From Desulfoluna sp. (GTDB lineage: Bacteria; Desulfobacterota; Desulfobacteria; Desulfobacterales; Desulfolunaceae): DNA of 40,972 bases. The number at the start of each line of letters is the position of its first letter. The first letter of the stretch is position 1. The notes below the pieces were generated by a model. The model was given only the letters and a program-made list of their open reading frames with translations, had not been told where the DNA came from and did no database searches. Positions 24,939 to 39,023 of this stretch are shown here, piece after piece. A program made the translations under genes and the position numbers. The stretch covers positions 1-40,972 of the forward strand of contig NZ_JAQYWB010000051.1 of assembly GCF_030145185.1 (NCBI RefSeq), in the 5' to 3' direction.

Positions 24939-24993
24939 CATAAAAAACCAAACCGACCCATTAATTATTTTTTACGATATGGAGCATCCAAAG

Positions 24994-26460
24994 ATGAACT
25001 ACTTCAACACCCTCCCCTTACGTCTTCAACTGGAACAGCTTGGCAAATGCAGCTTCATGGACTCTTCAGAGTTCAACGGTGTAGAGAAACTCAAAGGCAA
25101 AAAACTTGTCATCGTCGGATGCGGCGCCCAGGGCCTCAACCAGGGTCTCAACCTGCGTGACAGCGGCCTCGACGTCTCCTACACCCTGCGTCAGGCAGCC
25201 ATCAACGAGAAACGTCAGTCCTGGCTCAATGCCACGGAGAACGGCTTTTCCGTCGGCACCTACGAAGAGATGCTCCCCACCGCCGATCTTGTCCTCAACC
25301 TTACCCCGGACAAGCAGCACACCAACGTCGTGGAAAAGGTGATGCCCCTGATGAAAAAAGGTGCCTGCCTCTCCTACTCCCACGGCTTCAACATCGTCGA
25401 GGAAGGGATGCAGGTCCGCGAGGACCTCACCGTCGTCATGGTGGCCCCAAAATCTCCTGGAACTGAAGTCCGTGAAGAGTACAAACGCGGTTTCGGCGTC
25501 CCCACCCTGATTGCCGTCCACAAAGAGAACGATCCCAACGGAGATGGCCTGGAGATCGCCAAGGCCTACGCCGCCGGAACCGGTGGAGACCGCGCCGGCG
25601 TGCTTCTCTCCTCCTTCATCGCCGAGGTAAAGTCCGATCTCATGGGTGAGCAGACCATCCTTTGCGGCATGCTCCAGACCGGCTCCATCCTCTGCTTTGA
25701 TAAGATGATCGAAAAAGGGATCGACACCGGCTACGCCAGCAAACTCATCCAGTACGGCTGGGAGACCATCACCGAAGCCCTCAAGCACGGCGGCATCACC
25801 AACATGATGGATCGCCTGGACAACCCGGCCAAAATAAAAGCCTTCGATCTCTCTGAAGAGATGAAAACCATCATGCGTCCCCTCTTCAACAAACACATGG
25901 ACGACATCATGGGCGGCGCCTTCTCCGAAGGGATGATGGCCGACTGGGCCGAAGGTGATGCCAAGCTCCTCGGATGGCGGGAAGAGACCGGCCAGACTGC
26001 CTTTGAAAAATCCACGGCGGGCGAGATGGAGATCACCGAGCAGGCCTTCTTTGACAACGGCATCCTCATGGTGGCCATGGTTAAGGCCGGGGTTGAACTC
26101 GCCTTTGAGACCATGGTGGCCGCTGGCATCAAACCCGAATCCGCCTACTATGAGTCTCTCCACGAGACCCCCCTCATCGCCAACCTCATCAGCCGCAAGA
26201 AGCTCTACGAGATGAATAAAGTGATCTCCGACACCGCAGAATACGGCTGCTACCTCTTCGCCAACGCCTGCGTGCCCCTCCTGGCCGATTTCATGAAAGG
26301 TGTGAACACCGACATCATCGGCAAAGGGCTGGCGTCCGAAGACAACGGCGTGGACAACATGGCTCTCATCGAGGTGAACGAAGCCCTGCGTAACCACCCC
26401 GTCGAAGTGGTCGGCAAAGAACTGAGAGGCTACATGACCGCCATGAAGGCCATCCTCTAA
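24994..26460 (+). CDS. ilvC: Ketol-acid reductoisomerase IlvC, class II (long form)
   Basis: IlvC isomerises and reduces acetolactate and acetohydroxybutyrate with NADPH. At 488 residues it is the long, class II type: it starts [19 protein letters not shown] like the enterobacterial enzyme and has a duplicated C-terminal knot domain. The nucleotide loop [15 protein letters not shown] is near 33-47, and [28 protein letters not shown] and [15 protein letters not shown] are as expected. I start at 24994, matching the family N terminus, with GGAG nine bases upstream; ATG 24979 is less likely. Class I (about 330 residues) is the commoner bacterial form, so the class II type here may reflect transfer. 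A strong terminator follows. Confidence 0.95.
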
Positions 26461-26492
26461 AAAATGCCCTCTCCGGCGCCTCTGCCGGGGAC

Positions 26493-26513
26493 CCGCGTTT
26501 CAAAAAAACGCGG
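26493..26513 (+). other. First hairpin after ilvC
   Basis: CCGCGTTT (26493-26500) and AAACGCGG (26506-26513) form an eight-pair stem with a 5-base loop. It precedes the true terminator and may protect the 3' end of the transcript. Confidence 0.5.
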
Positions 26514-26536
26514 ATAAAAGGCAGGCAAACGAACAC

Positions 26537-26574
26537 AAAAAAGGTGGAACCGATGACGGTTCCACCTTTTTTTT
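26537..26574 (+). terminator. Intrinsic terminator of the ilv cluster
   Basis: An A-rich arm with GGTGGAACC pairs with GGTTCCACC around a 6-base loop GATGAC, followed by eight Ts. The flanking A and T runs extend the stem, so it could act on either strand. It marks the end of the ilvD-to-ilvC unit. Confidence 0.95.
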
Positions 26575-26834
26575 ACATCTCACATCGTGCTACCTCTCCC
26601 CACGGCCCTCCTCAAAATGAAATTTAATGGCCGTTCTTTGCCAGGGCACAAACCTGTGACATGACGTCAACATTTCATCATCTCGCGCCTCATTTATTTA
26701 CCTAATAAAATTTTAATCTTATTTAAATTAAGTAATATAAATTTTCAAATACGAATAGATATGTCATAGTCATTTCATTTTTCCGTATAACAGGCGCGTC
26801 ATGTTTTATTCACATTTTTGAAAGGATTGAGCCG

Positions 26835-27737
26835 ATGAAATTATTCACCATGGGTGCCCTCATGGCCTGCATTATGAGCTTCAGCCCCAACCTCGTTCTG
26901 GCCACCGAAAGCACGGCCCCGGCCGAGAGCCTCTCTTCTCAAGAGATATTGCATGGCGATGAGTCGAAATACGCCACTCAGTTCAAGGAAATCACTGAGC
27001 AGATTAATCTACTTAAAAGCCAGTACAAAGGAATCAATCAGGCCACCCGACAGCTCAAAGAGGCGGGTGCCTCATACCAACATACCTTGACAGCCGACAC
27101 GCACAAGGTGTCTCAGTACCTCACAGACGATCAATTGGGTACCATGGCGGGCGTATATACCATTGATGCCGGCTATGCCGCCCTCTTCCTGCGGAAAAAA
27201 GAGCTGAAAAATGTCATCTTGGCCCGAAGGGACTTAATGATAAAACTCGGGTTTCAGGCCCCCTTGTCCCCTAAAATGAAAAAGCTTCTTCAGAACCCGG
27301 AATCCATAAAGGATGGTCAGGCATGGACCGATGCCGTAAAGGCTGTGCACAAAAAATTTATGGCAAATGGAATAAACAGCGCTAAACAACTAAAAGTAAT
27401 AACAAATGTAGGCTACGGCATGCTCGTTGAAGGCCTTTACATTGCCACGGAATCCATTGCCATGGCGGATTATTCACCGAAGATGCTGGAGCAGCTGAAT
27501 ATCCAGCATGAACGGATCCATTTCATGATCAAACTGCTCAATACCATGCGACATGACGAAGACCTGAAGCATGCTGTGGGCTTTCGCCATAGCCTTGACT
27601 TTATGGGCAAAATTCACGCCCTGCTGATCGTCACCGAATATACCAGACAGGACGTCGAGGCCCTCCGCGAGGTTATTCGCCCCGAACGTCAAGCCATCCT
27701 GGATGGGGCCATCGGAAACGTCGCCACAAAACAGTAA
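26835..27737 (+). CDS. Secreted helical protein of unknown function
   Basis: I do not recognise this 300-residue protein. It starts with a clear signal peptide (hydrophobic about 4-20, cleavage likely after VLA at 21-23). The mature part looks almost entirely alpha-helical: amphipathic segments at about 44-75, 95-130, 160-215 and 220-290, no cysteines and no repeats. A coiled-coil-like stretch lies at 46-70 (FKEITEQINLLKSQYK). It is therefore probably periplasmic. AAAGGA lies nine bases before the ATG. The 260 bp upstream are clearly AT-richer than the surroundings. The ABC fusion starts 26 bp downstream, so the protein is probably its extracytoplasmic partner or substrate-handling factor. 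Confidence 0.75.
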   Translation: MKLFTMGALMACIMSFSPNLVLATESTAPAESLSSQEILHGDESKYATQFKEITEQINLLKSQYKGINQATRQLKEAGASYQHTLTADTHKVSQYLTDDQLGTMAGVYTIDAGYAALFLRKKELKNVILARRDLMIKLGFQAPLSPKMKKLLQNPESIKDGQAWTDAVKAVHKKFMANGINSAKQLKVITNVGYGMLVEGLYIATESIAMADYSPKMLEQLNIQHERIHFMIKLLNTMRHDEDLKHAVGFRHSLDFMGKIHALLIVTEYTRQDVEALREVIRPERQAILDGAIGNVATKQ

Positions 27738-27763
27738 CGTAGAAGCAAAGCGCAGGTGCCCGG

Positions 27764-30700
27764 ATGATTGTTTCAGAGTTAACCTTAAATGGTATTTTGC
27801 ATCTTTTTGCCCTGTTATCTTCCTGTTATCATGAATCCGGGCCGCTTAAAGCACGCGACATGGTCAAAGCCTATCTGTCCGACTATCTGCGGATTGTTCA
27901 TACCGACACGTATCTTGGTCTATTCGACGGATTCTTAGACTTTTATGATGGAGACTCAGACCTGGATCTCCTCATCGCCCGAACCACTGAAATCTGTGGT
28001 CATCTGAAAGGCAACCTCCCGCGTCCTGAACAATACGCTGTGTTGCTCCGATTTTTTGAGCTTTCCCAAGCCGTTCCCCAGGCCCATCGTCATGAACTTT
28101 CCCGCCTCGCGGATGCCGCCGGCCAGGCCTTTGAAATCAGGCCGGATGTTATCCAGGATATGCTCGCGTTGCTCCATCACACCGAAGCCATGGAAGCCCT
28201 CGGTCCCAACCACCTCTTTATTCACTCTAAAAAGCCATGCGGCACGGCTCCCTGCCACGGGCTGGTTCGCGAGCACTTCGCCGGAGGCGTCACCGTTCTC
28301 CATATCGAAGATATCGACACTCTGTTTCTTGTGCCCCATACCCTTTCAGGGCAAACCCTCAACGGCACCCCCCTGCAACCGGGCGCGATTTATCCCCTTC
28401 CCACGGGATCGATCCTGAAAGATATTCATTCGAACCCCATCTATTACTCGGATATCGCCGCCTTTTTTAAACCACTCAACCCTGCAGGCGACATCCTCTT
28501 TACCGGTCACCATATTGATTTTCGTTTCCCAGGCAGTGACAACGGCCTCCACGATTTTTCTTTTGAGGCGACCGGGGGCCAGATGATTGGGGTGATGGGG
28601 GGCAGCGGGGTGGGCAAATCCACCCTTCTCAGTCTCCTGAACGGCTCCCTGCCCCCCCAGGAGGGTCAGGTCCTGATAAACGGAGCGGATCTTTATGGGA
28701 ACAGGCAAACACTCGAAGGGGTCATTGGGTTTGTGCCACAAGATGATCTGCTCTTTGAAGAGTTGACGGTTTACCAGAACCTCTTTTACAGCAGCCGTCT
28801 CTGTCTGGCCGACCTCAGCAAAGAGGCTTTGGCCAAGCGGGTCATGGGGATTCTGGGTGAGTTGAACCAGGAGGAAATCCGCGACCTGACCGTCGGGTCC
28901 CCCTTGGATAAAACCATCAGTGGCGGCCAGCGTAAACGGCTCAATATCGCCCTTGAACTGATCCGAGAACCATCGATCCTCTTTGTCGATGAGCCCACCT
29001 CCGGGCTCTCATCTGCGGACTCATTAAATGTGATTTCCCTGCTTAAAGAACAAAGCAAGAAGGGGAAATTGATCATCGTGATTATCCATCAGCCCTCCTC
29101 GGATATCTTCAAAATGTTCGATCAGCTGTGGCTGCTGGACAAGGGGGGACGCCCTATTTATACCGGCAATCCCCTCGATGCCATCCTCTATTTTCGTAAG
29201 GCTGCCTGGCAGGCCGGCACCGACGAGTGCCTCTGCCCTCAATGCGGCAATGTCAACCCGGAACAGATCTTTGATATTATCGAGATGAAGGAGTTGGACG
29301 ACCGGGGCTACGCCGCTGACCGGCGTCGATTCTCTCCAGAGGATTGGCATACGCGCCACCAGAAAACACGGACGACGGAGGACAAAAAACCTCCCACGGA
29401 CATGCCCCCCCCGCAACGGGCCCTGAAACGTCCGAGCCTGACCGGTCAGTTTGTCGTTTTTTTTATACGCAACCTCTTGACCCGGTTCACAAATCGGCAG
29501 TACCTGGCCATCAATGCACTTGAGGCCCCTCTGCTGGCCTGGGCCATCGCATCCTTTGCCGGGTATGGGAAGGGTCCGGGATATACCTTTGGGGCCAACC
29601 ACAACATCCCCGTTTACTTTTTTATGAGCGTGATTATCGCGTTATTCATGGGACTGTCTGTCAGTGCAGAGGAAATTATCCGTGATCGAAAGATATTAAG
29701 CCGGGAACGATTTCTCCATTTAAGCTGGTTCAGTTACATCAACGGAAAAGCCGGGTATCTGTTCCTGGTGGGAGCCCTCCAGATGGGCCTTTATGTCCTG
29801 GTGGGCAATACCATGTTGGGGATCCCGGAGTTCACCGCCAAATTATGGACGGTGCTTTTCTCCTGCTTCGTCTGCGCCAGTCTGATCGGGCTCAACATAT
29901 CCGCAGCCTTTAAGACCGTGGTGACCATCTATATCCTCATCCCCCTTCTGCTGGTGCCCCAGATCATCATGGGGGGCATGGTGGTCTCCTTTGATGACCT
30001 GATCCCCCCCCAGACGCCCCACAACCGCGTCCCGGTCGTCGCCAACTTCATGCCCTCGCGCTGGGGGTTTGAAGCCGCCGTGACGGAACAGTTCTGGAGC
30101 AACCGTTTCCAGGCGCCCTACACCGACCTGGACAGGCAAATCAGCCATGCCGATTTTTGGGTAAACTATTATGTACCCGAGCTTTTCTCCCAGATCGATT
30201 TCCCTTTCATCGATACCCCGGACGCCTCTCATGCCCAAAAGACAAAGGCTGCATTAACATTATTAAAAACTGAATTTACAGACCTTGCTAAAAAACAGGG
30301 CATCGACCTCAAGCTGCCCTCCGATGCCTTTACCCCTCAGGGCTATTCACGCCACGTTGCCCGCCAGTTAAAAACGTCGTTGTCCAAGGTGCTCACCTCT
30401 TATCGCCAGAGGCGAGGCGAGGCCAACGACAAACGTCGAGACCTTGAATCCGCTCGAATCCAAGTCATGGGGATCGCAGTTTACCGGACCCTCGAAAAAA
30501 ACAACCAAAACAAAAGCCTTGTGAACCTGGTCAAAAACCGCCGCAACCTCGACGATTACCGGCTCAGCCCGACCCGAATCGTCCGCGTCTCCGACCCTGT
30601 CTTCACCCAGGATGTCACCCCCTGGGGCGGAGCGCCTTTTTATGCAGGACAAAAGCGAATCGGGCGCGTCGTTGTGCCCACCTACTTTTTTAATCTTGGG

Positions 30701-30826
30701 GTTTTATGGCTCTTCTCGGGTCTGTTCTATGCGGCTCTGTACGGAAACCTGCTGGCGCGTCTGCTCTCTCTCGGGGCGTCTGTGCATCGACCCGGTTTTT
30801 TCCAGAAAAATAAAAAATCGAAATAA
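27764..30826 (+). CDS. ABCG-like ATP-binding/permease fusion with N-terminal extra domain
   Basis: This 1020-residue inner-membrane protein has four parts. Residues 1-160 are helical and vaguely TerB-like. Residues 160-250 are beta-rich and contain LNGTPLQPG and LPTGSILKD. The ATPase has Walker A GGSGVGKST (Lys285), signature SGGQRKR from Ser386 and Walker B with Asp409-Glu410, then IIHQPSSD. The permease has predicted helices near 580-602, 615-635, 664-682, 694-715, 719-743 and 969-1000. A 225-residue loop between helices 5 and 6 should face the periplasm, as in the ABCG fold but much larger. A CLCPQCG motif near 488 may bind metal. It is coupled to the upstream secreted protein. Substrate unknown. 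Confidence 0.85.
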   Translation: MIVSELTLNGILHLFALLSSCYHESGPLKARDMVKAYLSDYLRIVHTDTYLGLFDGFLDFYDGDSDLDLLIARTTEICGHLKGNLPRPEQYAVLLRFFELSQAVPQAHRHELSRLADAAGQAFEIRPDVIQDMLALLHHTEAMEALGPNHLFIHSKKPCGTAPCHGLVREHFAGGVTVLHIEDIDTLFLVPHTLSGQTLNGTPLQPGAIYPLPTGSILKDIHSNPIYYSDIAAFFKPLNPAGDILFTGHHIDFRFPGSDNGLHDFSFEATGGQMIGVMGGSGVGKSTLLSLLNGSLPPQEGQVLINGADLYGNRQTLEGVIGFVPQDDLLFEELTVYQNLFYSSRLCLADLSKEALAKRVMGILGELNQEEIRDLTVGSPLDKTISGGQRKRLNIALELIREPSILFVDEPTSGLSSADSLNVISLLKEQSKKGKLIIVIIHQPSSDIFKMFDQLWLLDKGGRPIYTGNPLDAILYFRKAAWQAGTDECLCPQCGNVNPEQIFDIIEMKELDDRGYAADRRRFSPEDWHTRHQKTRTTEDKKPPTDMPPPQRALKRPSLTGQFVVFFIRNLLTRFTNRQYLAINALEAPLLAWAIASFAGYGKGPGYTFGANHNIPVYFFMSVIIALFMGLSVSAEEIIRDRKILSRERFLHLSWFSYINGKAGYLFLVGALQMGLYVLVGNTMLGIPEFTAKLWTVLFSCFVCASLIGLNISAAFKTVVTIYILIPLLLVPQIIMGGMVVSFDDLIPPQTPHNRVPVVANFMPSRWGFEAAVTEQFWSNRFQAPYTDLDRQISHADFWVNYYVPELFSQIDFPFIDTPDASHAQKTKAALTLLKTEFTDLAKKQGIDLKLPSDAFTPQGYSRHVARQLKTSLSKVLTSYRQRRGEANDKRRDLESARIQVMGIAVYRTLEKNNQNKSLVNLVKNRRNLDDYRLSPTRIVRVSDPVFTQDVTPWGGAPFYAGQKRIGRVVVPTYFFNLGVLWLFSGLFYAALYGNLLARLLSLGASVHRPGFFQKNKKSK

Positions 30827-30857
30827 TAAAAAAGGGGGCCCCTCAAACAGGTCCCCC
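30822..30857 (-). terminator. Minus-strand terminator for the chalcone-isomerase-like gene
   Basis: On the minus strand a CCCCC arm (30857-30853) pairs with GGGGG (30838-30834), with inner CC/GG pairs and one bulged base, followed by TTTTTTATTATT. It overlaps the end of the convergent ABC gene. Confidence 0.6.
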
Positions 30858-30907
30858 CTCTCCCTCATCATACCCTTTGTGTGACAGGCTCACACAAAAC
30901 AAATCAA

Positions 30908-30955
30908 ACCCACCCAACAACACGCTTTCGCAACGCACGGGCGGGTCTATTTTTT
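30908..30955 (+). terminator. Plus-strand terminator after the ABC fusion gene
   Basis: ACCCACCC (30908-30915) pairs with GGGCGGGT (30939-30946) with one mismatch, followed by CTATTTTTT. The loop is 23 bases, which is long. The T run reaches the stop codon of the convergent gene. Confidence 0.5.
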
Positions 30956-31538
30956 AGCCCTTAGGCTGTCCCAGCATCCCGGCTTTCATGGTTTCCAGGG
31001 TGGGCTTGGCACCGAGCCAGATACCGAAAAGGGCCTGTTTGAACGCAAGGCCTTCGATGGTGGCCTTTTTCTCGCCCTGCTTGTAGATACAGGTACCGGC
31101 TCCAGGGACATAGACCATGTCGTAGATATCATCCACGTTGATCTTCTCTTTGAAGACGTCCATCATGGCATCGATCTCTTTCTCGATGGGCGCGGTGTTG
31201 CCGTTGGTGGAGAGCTCGAAACCCTCCCGGGTGGACTTGGTCATCTTGTCGGAAGAGATCAGTTTGCTGGTAATGTAAAGACGAATGGCCATGGGGGCAT
31301 CGCCGCTGACCACCGCATCACCGTCCTCCGTCTTTTCTTGAAGAAACAGGGCCGCCACGTAAGGTTTCACCTTGATAAAACCAATTTTTTTAATCCGAAT
31401 GCCGGACCCGTTGAAAACAAGCTCCACGTTCTCCAGTTTAAGCTGCTCCGGAAATTTGACATCCTTGGCATCCACGGCAAAGGCCGTCCCGGTGGCAAGA
31501 CAAAGGGCCAAAAGCACCATCACGATTCGTTTGAACAT
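30954..31538 (-). CDS. Secreted chalcone isomerase-like protein
   Basis: The 194-residue product belongs to the chalcone-isomerase-like family, which in bacteria is common but without known substrate. A signal peptide (MFKRIVMVLLALCLATGTAFA) is followed by the family pattern NGSGIRIKKIGFIKVKPYVAALFL at about 43-66. RLYITSKLISSDKM, TREGFE, VPGAGTCIYKQGEK and the closing FKQALFGIWLG are also typical. The ATG at 31538 has AGGAGG five bases upstream; an in-frame ATG 20 codons earlier lacks support. It lies 66 bp after the DUF2147 gene on the same strand, so the two exported proteins are probably co-expressed. Confidence 0.85.
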   Translation of the reverse strand: MFKRIVMVLLALCLATGTAFAVDAKDVKFPEQLKLENVELVFNGSGIRIKKIGFIKVKPYVAALFLQEKTEDGDAVVSGDAPMAIRLYITSKLISSDKMTKSTREGFELSTNGNTAPIEKEIDAMMDVFKEKINVDDIYDMVYVPGAGTCIYKQGEKKATIEGLAFKQALFGIWLGAKPTLETMKAGMLGQPKG

Positions 31539-35695: not shown

Positions 35696-38638
35696 TTAAG
35701 GTGGCAACAGGACACTCACGGCATGTCGGCCATCCACCTTCATCACACACGGGGTTTCAAAGGTGGCAAGGGCTGTGAATTCCCCATCAACGGCCACCGG
35801 CTGTTTAAGGAGCCACGCCATATCAAAGTGGTCTCCCCTCGCCTCTATAATGGAGATATAATTGATCCCCAACGCGGTGATGTTATGAAAAAAATGTGAC
35901 CCCTGGGACGGATCCGCTTTTAAATCTTTGTGACTGCTTTCCACAATACCGCACACCTCAGAGATCTCCTCCCAGGTCACGGGAATGCCCAGCCACCGGT
36001 CTGCAGAGCCCCACCGCCCCGGCCCAAGCAACACATACTTCTCCTGCCGTTTGGCCATTTCCGCATTCATCCGACCGATCTCCCGGGCTATTTCCCGGGT
36101 CTTCTTCAAATCAAAGGCATCGGGCTTCACGTAGAGAATATGATGAACAGGCAACCCCTTCACATGCCCCAAGGCATGGGAAGAGACGCTCACGGCGGCG
36201 GCTTTTTCTGCCTCTGAAATGCCCACATCTGCCAGGGCCTCCCGATCGGTCATGGGCCGAATCTGGAGCAGCACGAACCGCCCCTTCTCCCCAGGCTGAC
36301 AGGGCAGGTCAACGGCAAATTCGATCTCAACCGATGAGCCCATGCCCTGGGCTCCAATGTCCAAAACCCGGGAAAGCAAGGCCGGGAGGGGAAAAATGTT
36401 GTACTTGAGAATTTTATCAAATGTCAACACCCTGGGTCCGCGGAGCTGAGGCCCGTACCGAATGGTATTCTCATCTCGAACGTAGGTTCCTGCAAGATGC
36501 TTCAACGGGCTGTTGTCATCGAGATCACGAACAGAGAGCTTATCGATTTCCGAATTCAGAGAGACCACGGAAGCCGGTGCTTTTCCGCCAACCTTCAGGG
36601 CATATAAACTTTGCTGAGCACTCTTGAGGATTTCTTCCACCCGAGAAAACTGCGGCAGAATATGGGGCCGTTTGGGAGAAAAACGCAAGGCCTGTTCCCC
36701 TTCCACCACCGTACGCCCCAATCCCATGGCAATGGCGGCAATCCCCTCTTCCGCCTTCATTTTTCCAAAGGGATAGTAATTGTAGGATTGGGCCACCCCC
36801 GAAATCGCAGGATAATAATAATCGCCCCACCGACGCCCGGAGACCGCCTGGATGATCACCGCCATCTTCTCCTCTTCGGTGCGATGCCCGACCCTCCTCG
36901 CAAAACTCTTGGGGCCCTGAAAATAGGTAGAGGCGTAGACCAATTTCACCCCAGAGATCAGCTGATTCACCCTCACCTCCAGATCCGGGTGATCATTGGA
37001 CATCATGCAGGTGTGATAAAGGCCCGCATAGGCCATAAACTGGGCGTCTTCAAACAGCGCTGACGAACGGACAGCGAGGGGATGATGAATCTCATTTAAA
37101 AAAACCCGCAACTCTTCGCCAATCCATCCAGGGAAGACGGCCTTCTGAAAGTGCTCAATCACCTCCTCATCTGGAAGGTCGGCCTTGGCAAGCCACAAGA
37201 GATTGTTTTCCTGCACAAAGGCATCAAACCCTTCGGTGGAGATCACCAGGGTCTGGGGAAGAGCAATCTCCACATCCTCAAAGGCTTCGTTCAACTCGGG
37301 GTGGTGCCTGAGAAGCGTTGAGGCGAACACAAGCCCCCGGGCTTTGCCCCCCAGGGACCCGTTTCCAATTTTCAGAAAATCGGTCTCCGGGTCAAACTCA
37401 TCGGCATCGAATTGAACCACCACACCCTTCTGCCGACTGCGCCGACGCTCTTGAATATTCCTCTGAATAAAGGCCTTCATGTCGGAGATATTCCCGAAGA
37501 AATCCTTATCCGTGGCGGGCCTCAGGCGATTAGCGAGCAGGGTCTCCGAGCGGGCATAGAACCACCGGGAGAAATCATTTTTCCGCCAGTGGTGATAAAA
37601 ACACTCATCCGAGATATCGGCCAACCTCTTTTCAAGAGCCCGAAAGTTGGGGGCTCTCCCCAGCTCGCGCCCGTCGTCGCCTCGGAACACAAAATCACCA
37701 AACCCCAGTTGATTCACAAAATAGTGGTGAAAATCACCGGAAAGTGAGGGGGAATTCTTGTCCACAAAGTAGATGCCCAGGGCATCTGCCATGCGCCGGT
37801 TGGAAGATTCCGTGCTGGCCATCATCAGAGGAATATCGGCCTGGTGAGCTTGAATATGGGACAGGACACGGTATCCGGAGTCATCACAAACAGCGCCCTC
37901 CCGTGGGAAACTGGCGTCAGAGATAACCCCCAGAACATAATCCTTGTATGTCTCATAGATCTCCATGGCCTCTTCGTAACTCTGGGCCACAATAATTTTG
38001 GGCCGGGCCCGCATGGTCAGGAGCCGATGTTCATGGTTTAAGACCTCCTCCATCACATTCTGAACCTGAGTGACCACCTCTTTATATAAGATTGGAAGAA
38101 TGGCCGAGGTATAAAGGGGAGAATCCTCCACCATCAGAATCACCCGGACCCCGGCTTTTTCCGTGTCATGCGCCACATTAAGTCGATCCTCTTCGCTTTT
38201 AATCAGGGCAAGGAGAATGTCGGCATTTCCGCTCCAGACGTACATGCGATCCACGCCCCGGGATTTGGAACGTGCCAGATCGAATTGACTCGGCAACTGA
38301 CTGTGAGTCAGCAGAATAACTGGGATGCAGGGGCACTTACGTTTGATCTCCTCCCCCAGGGTGAAGGCGTCCATGTCCACGAGCCGAAGCATGGTGACGA
38401 CCATGTCAAAGGGGCGTTTTTCCAGCATAGCCAGGGCCTCTTCAGCCGTAGAAACCCAGGTCAACCGAGGAGGCCGACTCAAGTTAAGGCCCCGATACTC
38501 GGTGACGATCTTCTCCGAAAGCCGCCCGTCCTCTTCCATGATGCAGGCATCATACAGACTTGAGACCAATAAAATCTCCCTGATTTTATTGGGCATCAGC
38601 TCATAAAATATCTTAAACCGAGAATCAAAATCTTCCAT
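35696..38638 (-). CDS. PEP/pyruvate-binding protein with two receiver-like domains
   Basis: This 980-residue cytoplasmic protein combines signalling and metabolic modules. Residues 18-150 form a receiver-like fold whose acceptor position is Met83 (FDMVVTMLRL), so it cannot be phosphorylated there. Residues 165-310 form a second receiver-like domain with Asp241 (GVISDASF). From about 425 there is the ATP-grasp nucleotide-binding domain of PEP synthase/PPDK: GNGSLGGKARG, LAVRSSALFEDA near 521-532, and later VEIEFAVDLP and VLLQIRPM. The phosphohistidine and PEP-binding barrel domains are absent, and a unique ~200-residue C-terminal part replaces them. Start: ATG 38638, AGG upstream; a GTG at 38746 would add 36 residues without support. 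Role unknown. Confidence 0.85.
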   Translation of the reverse strand: MEDFDSRFKIFYELMPNKIREILLVSSLYDACIMEEDGRLSEKIVTEYRGLNLSRPPRLTWVSTAEEALAMLEKRPFDMVVTMLRLVDMDAFTLGEEIKRKCPCIPVILLTHSQLPSQFDLARSKSRGVDRMYVWSGNADILLALIKSEEDRLNVAHDTEKAGVRVILMVEDSPLYTSAILPILYKEVVTQVQNVMEEVLNHEHRLLTMRARPKIIVAQSYEEAMEIYETYKDYVLGVISDASFPREGAVCDDSGYRVLSHIQAHQADIPLMMASTESSNRRMADALGIYFVDKNSPSLSGDFHHYFVNQLGFGDFVFRGDDGRELGRAPNFRALEKRLADISDECFYHHWRKNDFSRWFYARSETLLANRLRPATDKDFFGNISDMKAFIQRNIQERRRSRQKGVVVQFDADEFDPETDFLKIGNGSLGGKARGLVFASTLLRHHPELNEAFEDVEIALPQTLVISTEGFDAFVQENNLLWLAKADLPDEEVIEHFQKAVFPGWIGEELRVFLNEIHHPLAVRSSALFEDAQFMAYAGLYHTCMMSNDHPDLEVRVNQLISGVKLVYASTYFQGPKSFARRVGHRTEEEKMAVIIQAVSGRRWGDYYYPAISGVAQSYNYYPFGKMKAEEGIAAIAMGLGRTVVEGEQALRFSPKRPHILPQFSRVEEILKSAQQSLYALKVGGKAPASVVSLNSEIDKLSVRDLDDNSPLKHLAGTYVRDENTIRYGPQLRGPRVLTFDKILKYNIFPLPALLSRVLDIGAQGMGSSVEIEFAVDLPCQPGEKGRFVLLQIRPMTDREALADVGISEAEKAAAVSVSSHALGHVKGLPVHHILYVKPDAFDLKKTREIAREIGRMNAEMAKRQEKYVLLGPGRWGSADRWLGIPVTWEEISEVCGIVESSHKDLKADPSQGSHFFHNITALGINYISIIEARGDHFDMAWLLKQPVAVDGEFTALATFETPCVMKVDGRHAVSVLLPP

Positions 38639-39023
38639 CGATAACCTGCCGTTCAATGTCAAGCCACACCCTCCTTCGTACCCACCAAAGAGATAAAAGA
38701 CCCATTCCAAAAATGACAAAGGGGTACTGTTTGATATATCAGACACCTAATACCAAAGCAAGCTCAGGCTGAAGGTTCCGCCCCACACCAACCCCCTATT
38801 TTTCCTGTCATTCCGGATAAAAAAGAGTTCACCCCCTCGGGATTGCGCCCCCTTTCCTCTCTTTTATCTACTGAAAACCCTTCTTCAGATTGACTTTTCA
38901 TCGGGACTGGACTAAGGCCAATGCAGACAAAATTGGCGTCAAAATGACGCCATAAGGCACACGGATACAGGTCCGACCAAGCCGGACAAAATGCTGAACA
39001 CTCAATGAAATGAGGCCATCCAC
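38639..39023. other. Divergent intergenic region before panC
   Basis: No gene is seen. The stretch separates two divergent genes and must hold both promoters. A perfect inverted repeat TGGCGTC-aaaat-GACGCCA at 38934-38952 is a possible operator or RNA hairpin upstream of panC. TTGACT at 38890-38895 is a possible -35 box without a convincing -10. Confidence 0.45.
38934..38952 (+). promoter_or_regulatory. Palindrome upstream of panC
   Basis: TGGCGTC and GACGCCA are exact inverted copies separated by five bases, 71 bp before the panC start. With no T-tract it suits a protein-binding site or a leader hairpin rather than a terminator. Confidence 0.4.

Follow-up and report, generated by a model that had tools for sequence, protein, structure and literature searches.

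Contig NZ_JAQYWB010000051.1 of Desulfoluna sp. (assembly GCF_030145185.1; positions 1 to 40,972, the whole stretch analysed, hereafter the window) carries two neighbouring genes that recur together across distant bacteria. The first encodes a secreted helical protein of 300 amino acids (aa), here called the partner, and the second an ATP-binding cassette (ABC) transporter with the ABCG fold (Table 1). Sequence comparison strongly supports the pair as a conserved unit. We further propose, giving it about an even chance, that the two genes encode one machine of the cell envelope, in which the transporter works with a dedicated extracytoplasmic partner. The initial annotation of the window had suggested an unusual export or signalling machine; the genes do form a unit, the partner is predicted to be secreted and the loop proposed as its docking site lies outside by homology, while the supposed novelty of the N-terminal domain had to be corrected. 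No paper on this pair was found in the open-licence literature, subscription papers not being covered.

Conservation of the gene pair

Both open reading frames (ORFs) were confirmed as first annotated; they are co-directional, with 26 nucleotides (nt) between them. Scanning genome contigs with a three-member family alignment yielded 255 relatives of the transporter, of which the best 80 were kept. Together with the window, a Parabacteroides locus (L044) and a locus from a second genome of the window's phylum (L045), they make up 83 loci, many of them from Prevotellaceae and some near-identical. Desulfobacteraceae, other deltaproteobacteria, Synergistaceae, Acidobacteria, Verrucomicrobia, Competibacteraceae, Oligoflexia, Bacteroidetes and Chlorobi are represented. 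These labels cover at least seven phylum- or class-level groups and are those of the depositors, most assemblies being derived from metagenomes.

A partner gene lies next to the transporter or nearby in 76 of the 83 loci, and the two genes are thus mostly together, not apart, in other genomes. In 68 loci it is downstream and in six upstream on the same strand, in one it is on the opposite strand at 36 base pairs (bp) and in one at 1465 bp; the 74 same-strand pairs, in either gene order, have a median gap of 54.5 nt. Among the seven loci without a partner, three contigs end less than 180 bp past the transporter (L059, L063, L091) and four do not (L053, L057, L058, L093). The genomes of L053, L057 and L093 hold full-length partners elsewhere, and in L058 a truncated ORF stands by this transporter copy and full partners stand by two others. 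Since the same layout and a neighbouring partner recur so widely among relatives, the pairing exceeds chance. Because the gene order can be swapped, the pairing is less likely to stem solely from simple inheritance of an old operon.

The hidden Markov model (HMM) behind this tally was built from the neighbours of these same transporters; independent HMMs and even draws of genomes are less circular. An HMM from 60 Bacteroidota neighbours found the window partner at 2e-8, one of seven found among 12 partners from outside Bacteroidota. One built from eight non-Bacteroidota partners, with the window and its nearest kin left out, found it at 3.5e-32, and all 31 matches of this HMM among 3632 ORFs were partner ORFs. 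Unrelated neighbour ORFs (in L074, L104, L111 and L093, and the truncated one in L058) had been taken out for the cleaned partner HMM test.

The initial annotation had suggested a search for co-occurrence, and whole genomes bear it out, with a partner present in all 24 that hold the transporter. In these genomes, a partner match lies within 6 kb of 29 of the 42 transporter copies, in one case a match of only 108 bases, and 31 of the 52 full-length partners are close to a transporter copy. The 42 copies are those left of 46 rows once weak rows in G450, G453 and G462 were dropped, along with a second fragment of a G467 gene; 52 of 59 partner rows were taken as full length. From Bacteroidota, the phylum to which Marivirga arenosa belongs, 296 genomes were drawn evenly, and seven of them held the partner (two with weak matches, at 9e-7 and 2e-8). 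At 1e-20 the transporter profile matched ten; the seven that fell below 1e-60 were the same seven genomes, and the remaining three matches are proteins of about 730-750 aa in which an FHA domain is joined to an ABC protein.

Among 395 genomes of the window's own phylum, the transporter query matched three at 1e-5 (its own, G145 and G333, the last through an FHA-FHA-ABC protein), and the partner was found in five, namely its own, G145 and three of one genus with weak matches (1e-8 to 1e-12). Of 58 relatives searched, five of the same genus included, only the window's own genome held the partner, and the transporter matches were at ATPase level. The distribution therefore appears patchy, since the pair was not found in these five same-genus genomes and yet is held at 70 percent identity by a Desulfobacteraceae genome; horizontal transfer or loss may explain it. 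A scan of viral contigs with the transporter gave no relative. Two plasmid records match the membrane half of the transporter, and the one from Parabacteroides holds the pair beside recA, so it is probably chromosomal DNA.

Weak members of the partner family without a transporter were seen in two genomes of one genus (L213 6458-7306, minus strand; L214 6401-7513, plus strand). In both, an apparent valyl-tRNA synthetase gene adjoins them.

The transporter

The transporter is, on strong support from structure prediction, an ABCG-fold half-transporter. Pfam places ABC_tran at residues 262-413 (1.1e-30) and ABC2_membrane at 562-773 (3.2e-18), giving the order of ATPase before ABC2-type membrane domain in one chain. 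The AlphaFold2 model, built from a 46-sequence alignment, has a mean predicted local distance difference test score (pLDDT) of 89 and a predicted template modelling score of 0.81. Its residues 241-1002 align with ABCG2 (7ojh_A) at Z 31.7 and a root-mean-square deviation of 3.7 over 542 aligned residues. Further structural matches are ABCG1, ABCG5/8, ABCG25, Pdr5 and Cdr1. An ABCG-type ATPase followed by six helices had been claimed, and these results agree with it. A Kyte-Doolittle scan alone finds only four hydrophobic stretches and misses the first membrane helix; the evidence for six helices is therefore the model together with the ABCG match. The type VII membrane fold (MacB/FtsX/LolC type) differs from the ABCG fold. 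It is lacking in the window transporter, whose membrane part matches ABC2_membrane within a whole-length ABCG fold.

The ATPase is predicted to be functional. Walker A, Q loop, signature, Walker B and the histidine are conserved, and their residues are invariant or nearly so in 46 sequences. In the linker behind it, a CxxCG motif (window 29234-29245, residues 491-494) is invariant and may form a metal site, although no second pair of ligands was seen.

Two cytoplasmic domains precede the ATPase. The first, a helical domain, had been called unfamiliar, which has to be amended: the corresponding domains of five out of 17 relatives match Pfam TerB (PF05099; E up to 0.1, best 2.9e-8), and that of the window transporter itself has no Pfam TerB match. 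The second had been described as rich in beta strands, as it is in the model. Eukaryotic ABCG half-transporters such as ABCG2 share with the window transporter the domain order, the fold over residues 241-1002 and an outer loop between helices 5 and 6; unlike them, it has the cytoplasmic TerB-like and beta-rich domains, a loop of about 237 residues and a dedicated secreted partner. Anti-phage libraries gave only ATPase-level matches for the transporter and none for the partner.

The partner protein

The partner was expected to be an all-helical protein with a signal peptide, and both features were recovered. A Sec-type signal peptide, judged by eye, would be cleaved after residue 23 (VLA/TES), and the structure model is all helix, with a mean pLDDT of 78.2 and residues 1-42 below 50. 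The window protein had nothing over the family cut-off in Pfam or NCBIfam, and 41 family members gave weak one-off matches to Pfam. Foldseek returned no match to the model at E 0.001; the best structural match, VIA at Z 6.1, is in the range of common helical arrangements. A PDB profile match to G-alpha-s (E 0.0017) was judged to be chance.

Sequence identity to the window partner is low, 11-49 percent among the rows compared, and the family seems to occur in two forms. All 30 rows from Bacteroidota and Chlorobi have a cysteine directly past the hydrophobic stretch, as in lipoproteins, so the partner is predicted to lie outside the cytoplasm in these phyla too. Among the other 11 rows such a cysteine occurs in two, both with an AxA-like site (by eye); in bacteria other than Bacteroidota the partner is apparently secreted in soluble form. 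Both forms would be extracytoplasmic.

In many loci with Sia-type genes the partner is followed by a third gene, whose product of about 140-180 aa appears to be secreted (17 ORFs; e.g., L060 8678-9106). The L060 copy has no Pfam match. In L220 the third gene comes after an orphan partner without a transporter.

The enlarged outer loop

The initial annotation placed a periplasmic loop of about 225 residues (744-968) between helices 5 and 6, which is close to the modelled extent. From its homology to ABCG2 and related proteins the loop is predicted to be extracytoplasmic, since the alignment puts it at the position of the third extracellular loop (EL3). Across 46 pairs, left of 70 after an identity filter, the partner's pairwise distances follow those of the loop more closely than those of any other of six transporter regions (r 0.973, vs 0.949-0.961 for the others). 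Of 500 subsamples, 499 had the loop as the best-correlated region, as did two of three subsets. This speaks mildly in favour of docking, and a similar speed of change in both regions could also produce it.

Two other relationships were rejected. The loop and the partner are not mutual homologues (hhalign 0.1 percent), and a PDB profile match of the loop to RecA fusions (E 2.6e-6), with no stretch passing alone, was taken as chance.

Partner-switch neighbours

Genes within 4.5 kb of the transporter were counted in the 83 loci. SiaC (PF09345) and SiaB-like DUF6272 occur near it in 15 loci and SpoIIE in 20, and 15 further loci without SiaC have genes for STAS or RsbW-type ATPase proteins. A recurring order is SpoIIE-SiaB-SiaC-transporter-partner-small secreted gene. 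All loci with switch genes belong to Bacteroidota or Chlorobi, except for one STAS gene in Oligoflexia.

SiaC, a protein switched by phosphorylation, activates the cyclase SiaD encoded beside it, and the authors of that work suggested that DUF1987 proteins in general modulate adjacent proteins (extracts of PMC8457831 and, for the switch, PMC7647112). The threonine of an NT(S/A)S motif in the neighbours of the transporter aligned with SiaC; the aligned threonine would be T68, given an offset of one. By analogy, SiaC could act on the transporter in Bacteroidota. The loci resemble SiaABCD of Pseudomonas aeruginosa in the order of SiaA-, SiaB- and SiaC-type genes before a target gene. They differ in that the adjoining target is an ABC transporter and not the diguanylate cyclase SiaD, and SiaC is absent from the window's genome.

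Proposed function and its alternatives

In the proposed machine, the transporter would form a homodimer, as ABCG2 does, and the partner would dock on its enlarged outer loops. Binding and hydrolysis of ATP would take a hydrophobic, lipid-like molecule out of the inner membrane, either to the partner or past it; the partner may be a carrier, an acceptor or a gate. In Bacteroidota only, a SpoIIE-type phosphatase and a SiaB/RsbW-type kinase would set the state of a SiaC or STAS protein, and this protein would bind the cytoplasmic domains of the transporter, turning the ATPase on or off. Export or hand-over of a lipid or another hydrophobic compound seems by analogy the likeliest job, since known ABCG proteins transport hydrophobic compounds. 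It agrees with this that the partner-bearing ABC systems LolCDE and YbbAP-TesA handle lipids (extracts of PMC12646458).

Several observations weigh against such a machine. No partner lies within 6 kb of 13 of the 42 transporter copies, and 21 of the 52 full-length partners are orphans; the three genomes of one genus with weak partner matches have no transporter at E 0.001. Five of the 12 partners from outside Bacteroidota were missed by the HMM built from that phylum alone. As to docking, each of the six transporter regions reaches r 0.95-0.97 with the partner, and in the subset from Prevotellaceae the loop (0.768) falls slightly behind the N-terminal domain (0.783). As to the switch, the window's genome has no PF09345 (SiaC) match, and SiaC is absent from ten of the 11 other non-Bacteroidota genomes searched; in the exception, G450, it is not beside the transporter.

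The main rival, rated as unlikely, is a transmembrane signalling or mechanical device that carries nothing across, ATP-driven motion being passed outward to the partner or the state of the partner being passed inward to the TerB-like domain and the switch domains. The type VII systems FtsEX-EnvC and YbbAP-TesA work in this way, with the partner setting the function (extracts of PMC12646458), and the linkage to partner switches and the large cytoplasmic front end would suit such a device. The well-conserved core of ATPase and membrane domain and the ABCG fold, whose known members transport, speak against such a device.

The switch genes might also regulate something else, such as transcription or cyclic di-GMP, and say nothing about the transporter, a possibility that we consider quite improbable. 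Partner switches often act on sigma factors (extracts of PMC7647112). The SiaC and SpoIIE families are numerous in some genomes; G464, the genome of L083, shows a large expansion with 42 SiaC-family matches. Against this, SiaC was found in 19 of the 32 genomes searched, 15 of which have a SiaC beside the transporter, and where a genome has a single SiaC it is that one in five of six cases (coordinates read by hand). Different switch types, Sia and Rsb, moreover recur beside the transporter.

It is doubtful, and clearly improbable, that the transporter is an FHA-ABCG exporter like Rv1747 of Mycobacterium tuberculosis whose FHA domain has degenerated, and the partner an accessory protein separate from it. 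The window transporter and Rv1747 are both bacterial ABCG-like proteins with regulatory domains before the ATPase and a neighbouring regulator gene, which for Rv1747 encodes the kinase PknF (extracts of PMC3908365). Beyond the family itself, the searches next met FHA-ABC proteins (in G333, G610, G650 and G654). The beta-rich domain stands at the FHA position, and its best PDB profile match is an FHA domain, a weak one (E 0.16). However, none of 17 members matches FHA there in Pfam, and hhalign gives 7 percent. Genomes G610, G650 and G654, which encode such FHA-ABC proteins, have no partner match, whereas the seven others have the partner. The window transporter differs from Rv1747 also in its TerB-like domain, large loop and partner, and the family has Sia/Rsb-type switch genes in place of a Ser/Thr kinase. 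That the partner is a cargo, a lipoprotein or secreted protein extracted from the membrane by the ABC protein, is highly improbable: Bacteroidota partners are lipoprotein-like and LolCDE does extract lipoproteins (extracts of PMC12646458), but outside Bacteroidota the partner seems soluble and needs no extraction, and its Sec signal makes ABC export needless.

The proposed export machine also has counterparts among known envelope systems. The type VII systems FtsEX-EnvC, LolCDE-LolA and YbbAP-TesA likewise combine an ABC protein with a dedicated periplasmic partner (extracts of PMC12646458); they differ from the window transporter, an ABCG protein, in their membrane fold. In some loci STAS genes near the transporter recall another system. 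In Mla (MlaFEDB-MlaC), an ABC transporter of lipids has a STAS subunit and works with a carrier in the periplasm. Unlike it, the pair is a separate evolutionary family, and no MCE match was among the families reported for both proteins or for the loop of 17 members.

It is possible, and put forward only tentatively, that these genes represent a widespread undescribed class of ABCG-fold machines, acting through a periplasmic helical protein on an enlarged loop, with the ATPase switched directly by a phosphorylation-controlled SiaC or STAS protein; such a class would be the ABCG counterpart of FtsEX-EnvC or Mla. If so, a dedicated periplasmic partner would serve a second ABC-protein fold as well, and the numerous SiaC/SiaB and SpoIIE orphans of Bacteroidota would gain a direct target besides sigma factors or cyclases. 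The module is present in Prevotella-like bacteria of gut and rumen as well as in Marivirga, a marine genus that can be cultured, and is therefore testable.

Genomic setting

Table 1. Features of the gene pair and its upstream region (window coordinates).
Feature	Position	Strand	Basis or remarks
Partner gene	26835..27737	+	300 aa; Sec signal peptide, all-helical, no Pfam family
ABCG-fold transporter gene	27764..30826	+	1020 aa; ORF, Pfam, model, structure match
N-terminal helical domain, residues 1-145	27764..28198	+	model: seven helices in 5-138; TerB-like in relatives
Beta-rich domain, residues 146-245	28199..28498	+	model: strands in 150-227
Nucleotide-binding domain, residues 246-480	28499..29203	+	Walker A 279-287, signature 385-390, Walker B with Glu410, His442
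Linker, residues 481-557	29204..29434	+	invariant C491/C494-G495
Connecting helix and membrane helices 1-5, residues 558-735	29435..29968	+	Pfam, model, ABCG match
Enlarged outer loop (EL3 position), residues 736-972	29969..30679	+	about 237 residues; mainly helical, few short strands (model)
Membrane helix 6, residues 973-993	30680..30742	+	model
Terminator-like perfect hairpin, 16 pairs	26537..26572	. (scan scored minus)	between ilv cluster and pair
AT-rich stretch, presumed promoter region	26575..26834	+	GC scan

The pair had been described as set apart by an AT-rich upstream stretch and the terminator of the ilv cluster. The drop in GC content is present, with 0.35-0.38 in windows covering 26500-26874 vs 0.52-0.60 in windows immediately before. 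The hairpin is present as well, and from its position it may mark the end of the ilv cluster, as ilvC ends at 26460 (ketol-acid reductoisomerase domains in 24979-26457, Pfam). Terminator-like sites in the region number seven, vs 5.6 (standard deviation 1.8) in shuffles, which is not clearly higher. A consensus scan of 26400-31000 found two promoter-like sites, both outside 26575-26834, with no sigma-70-like site within it, and an Rfam scan of 26300-31100 gave no match above threshold.

Downstream of the pair, two small, presumably secreted proteins are encoded on the opposite strand, one chalcone isomerase-like (PF16036; 30954-31598, minus) and one with DUF2147 (PF09917; 31605-32117, minus). 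Farther along, an ORF of 1016 aa (35699-38746, minus) shows an unusual combination of a response-regulator receiver match (residues 94-150) with a pyruvate phosphate dikinase ATP-binding domain (464-841).

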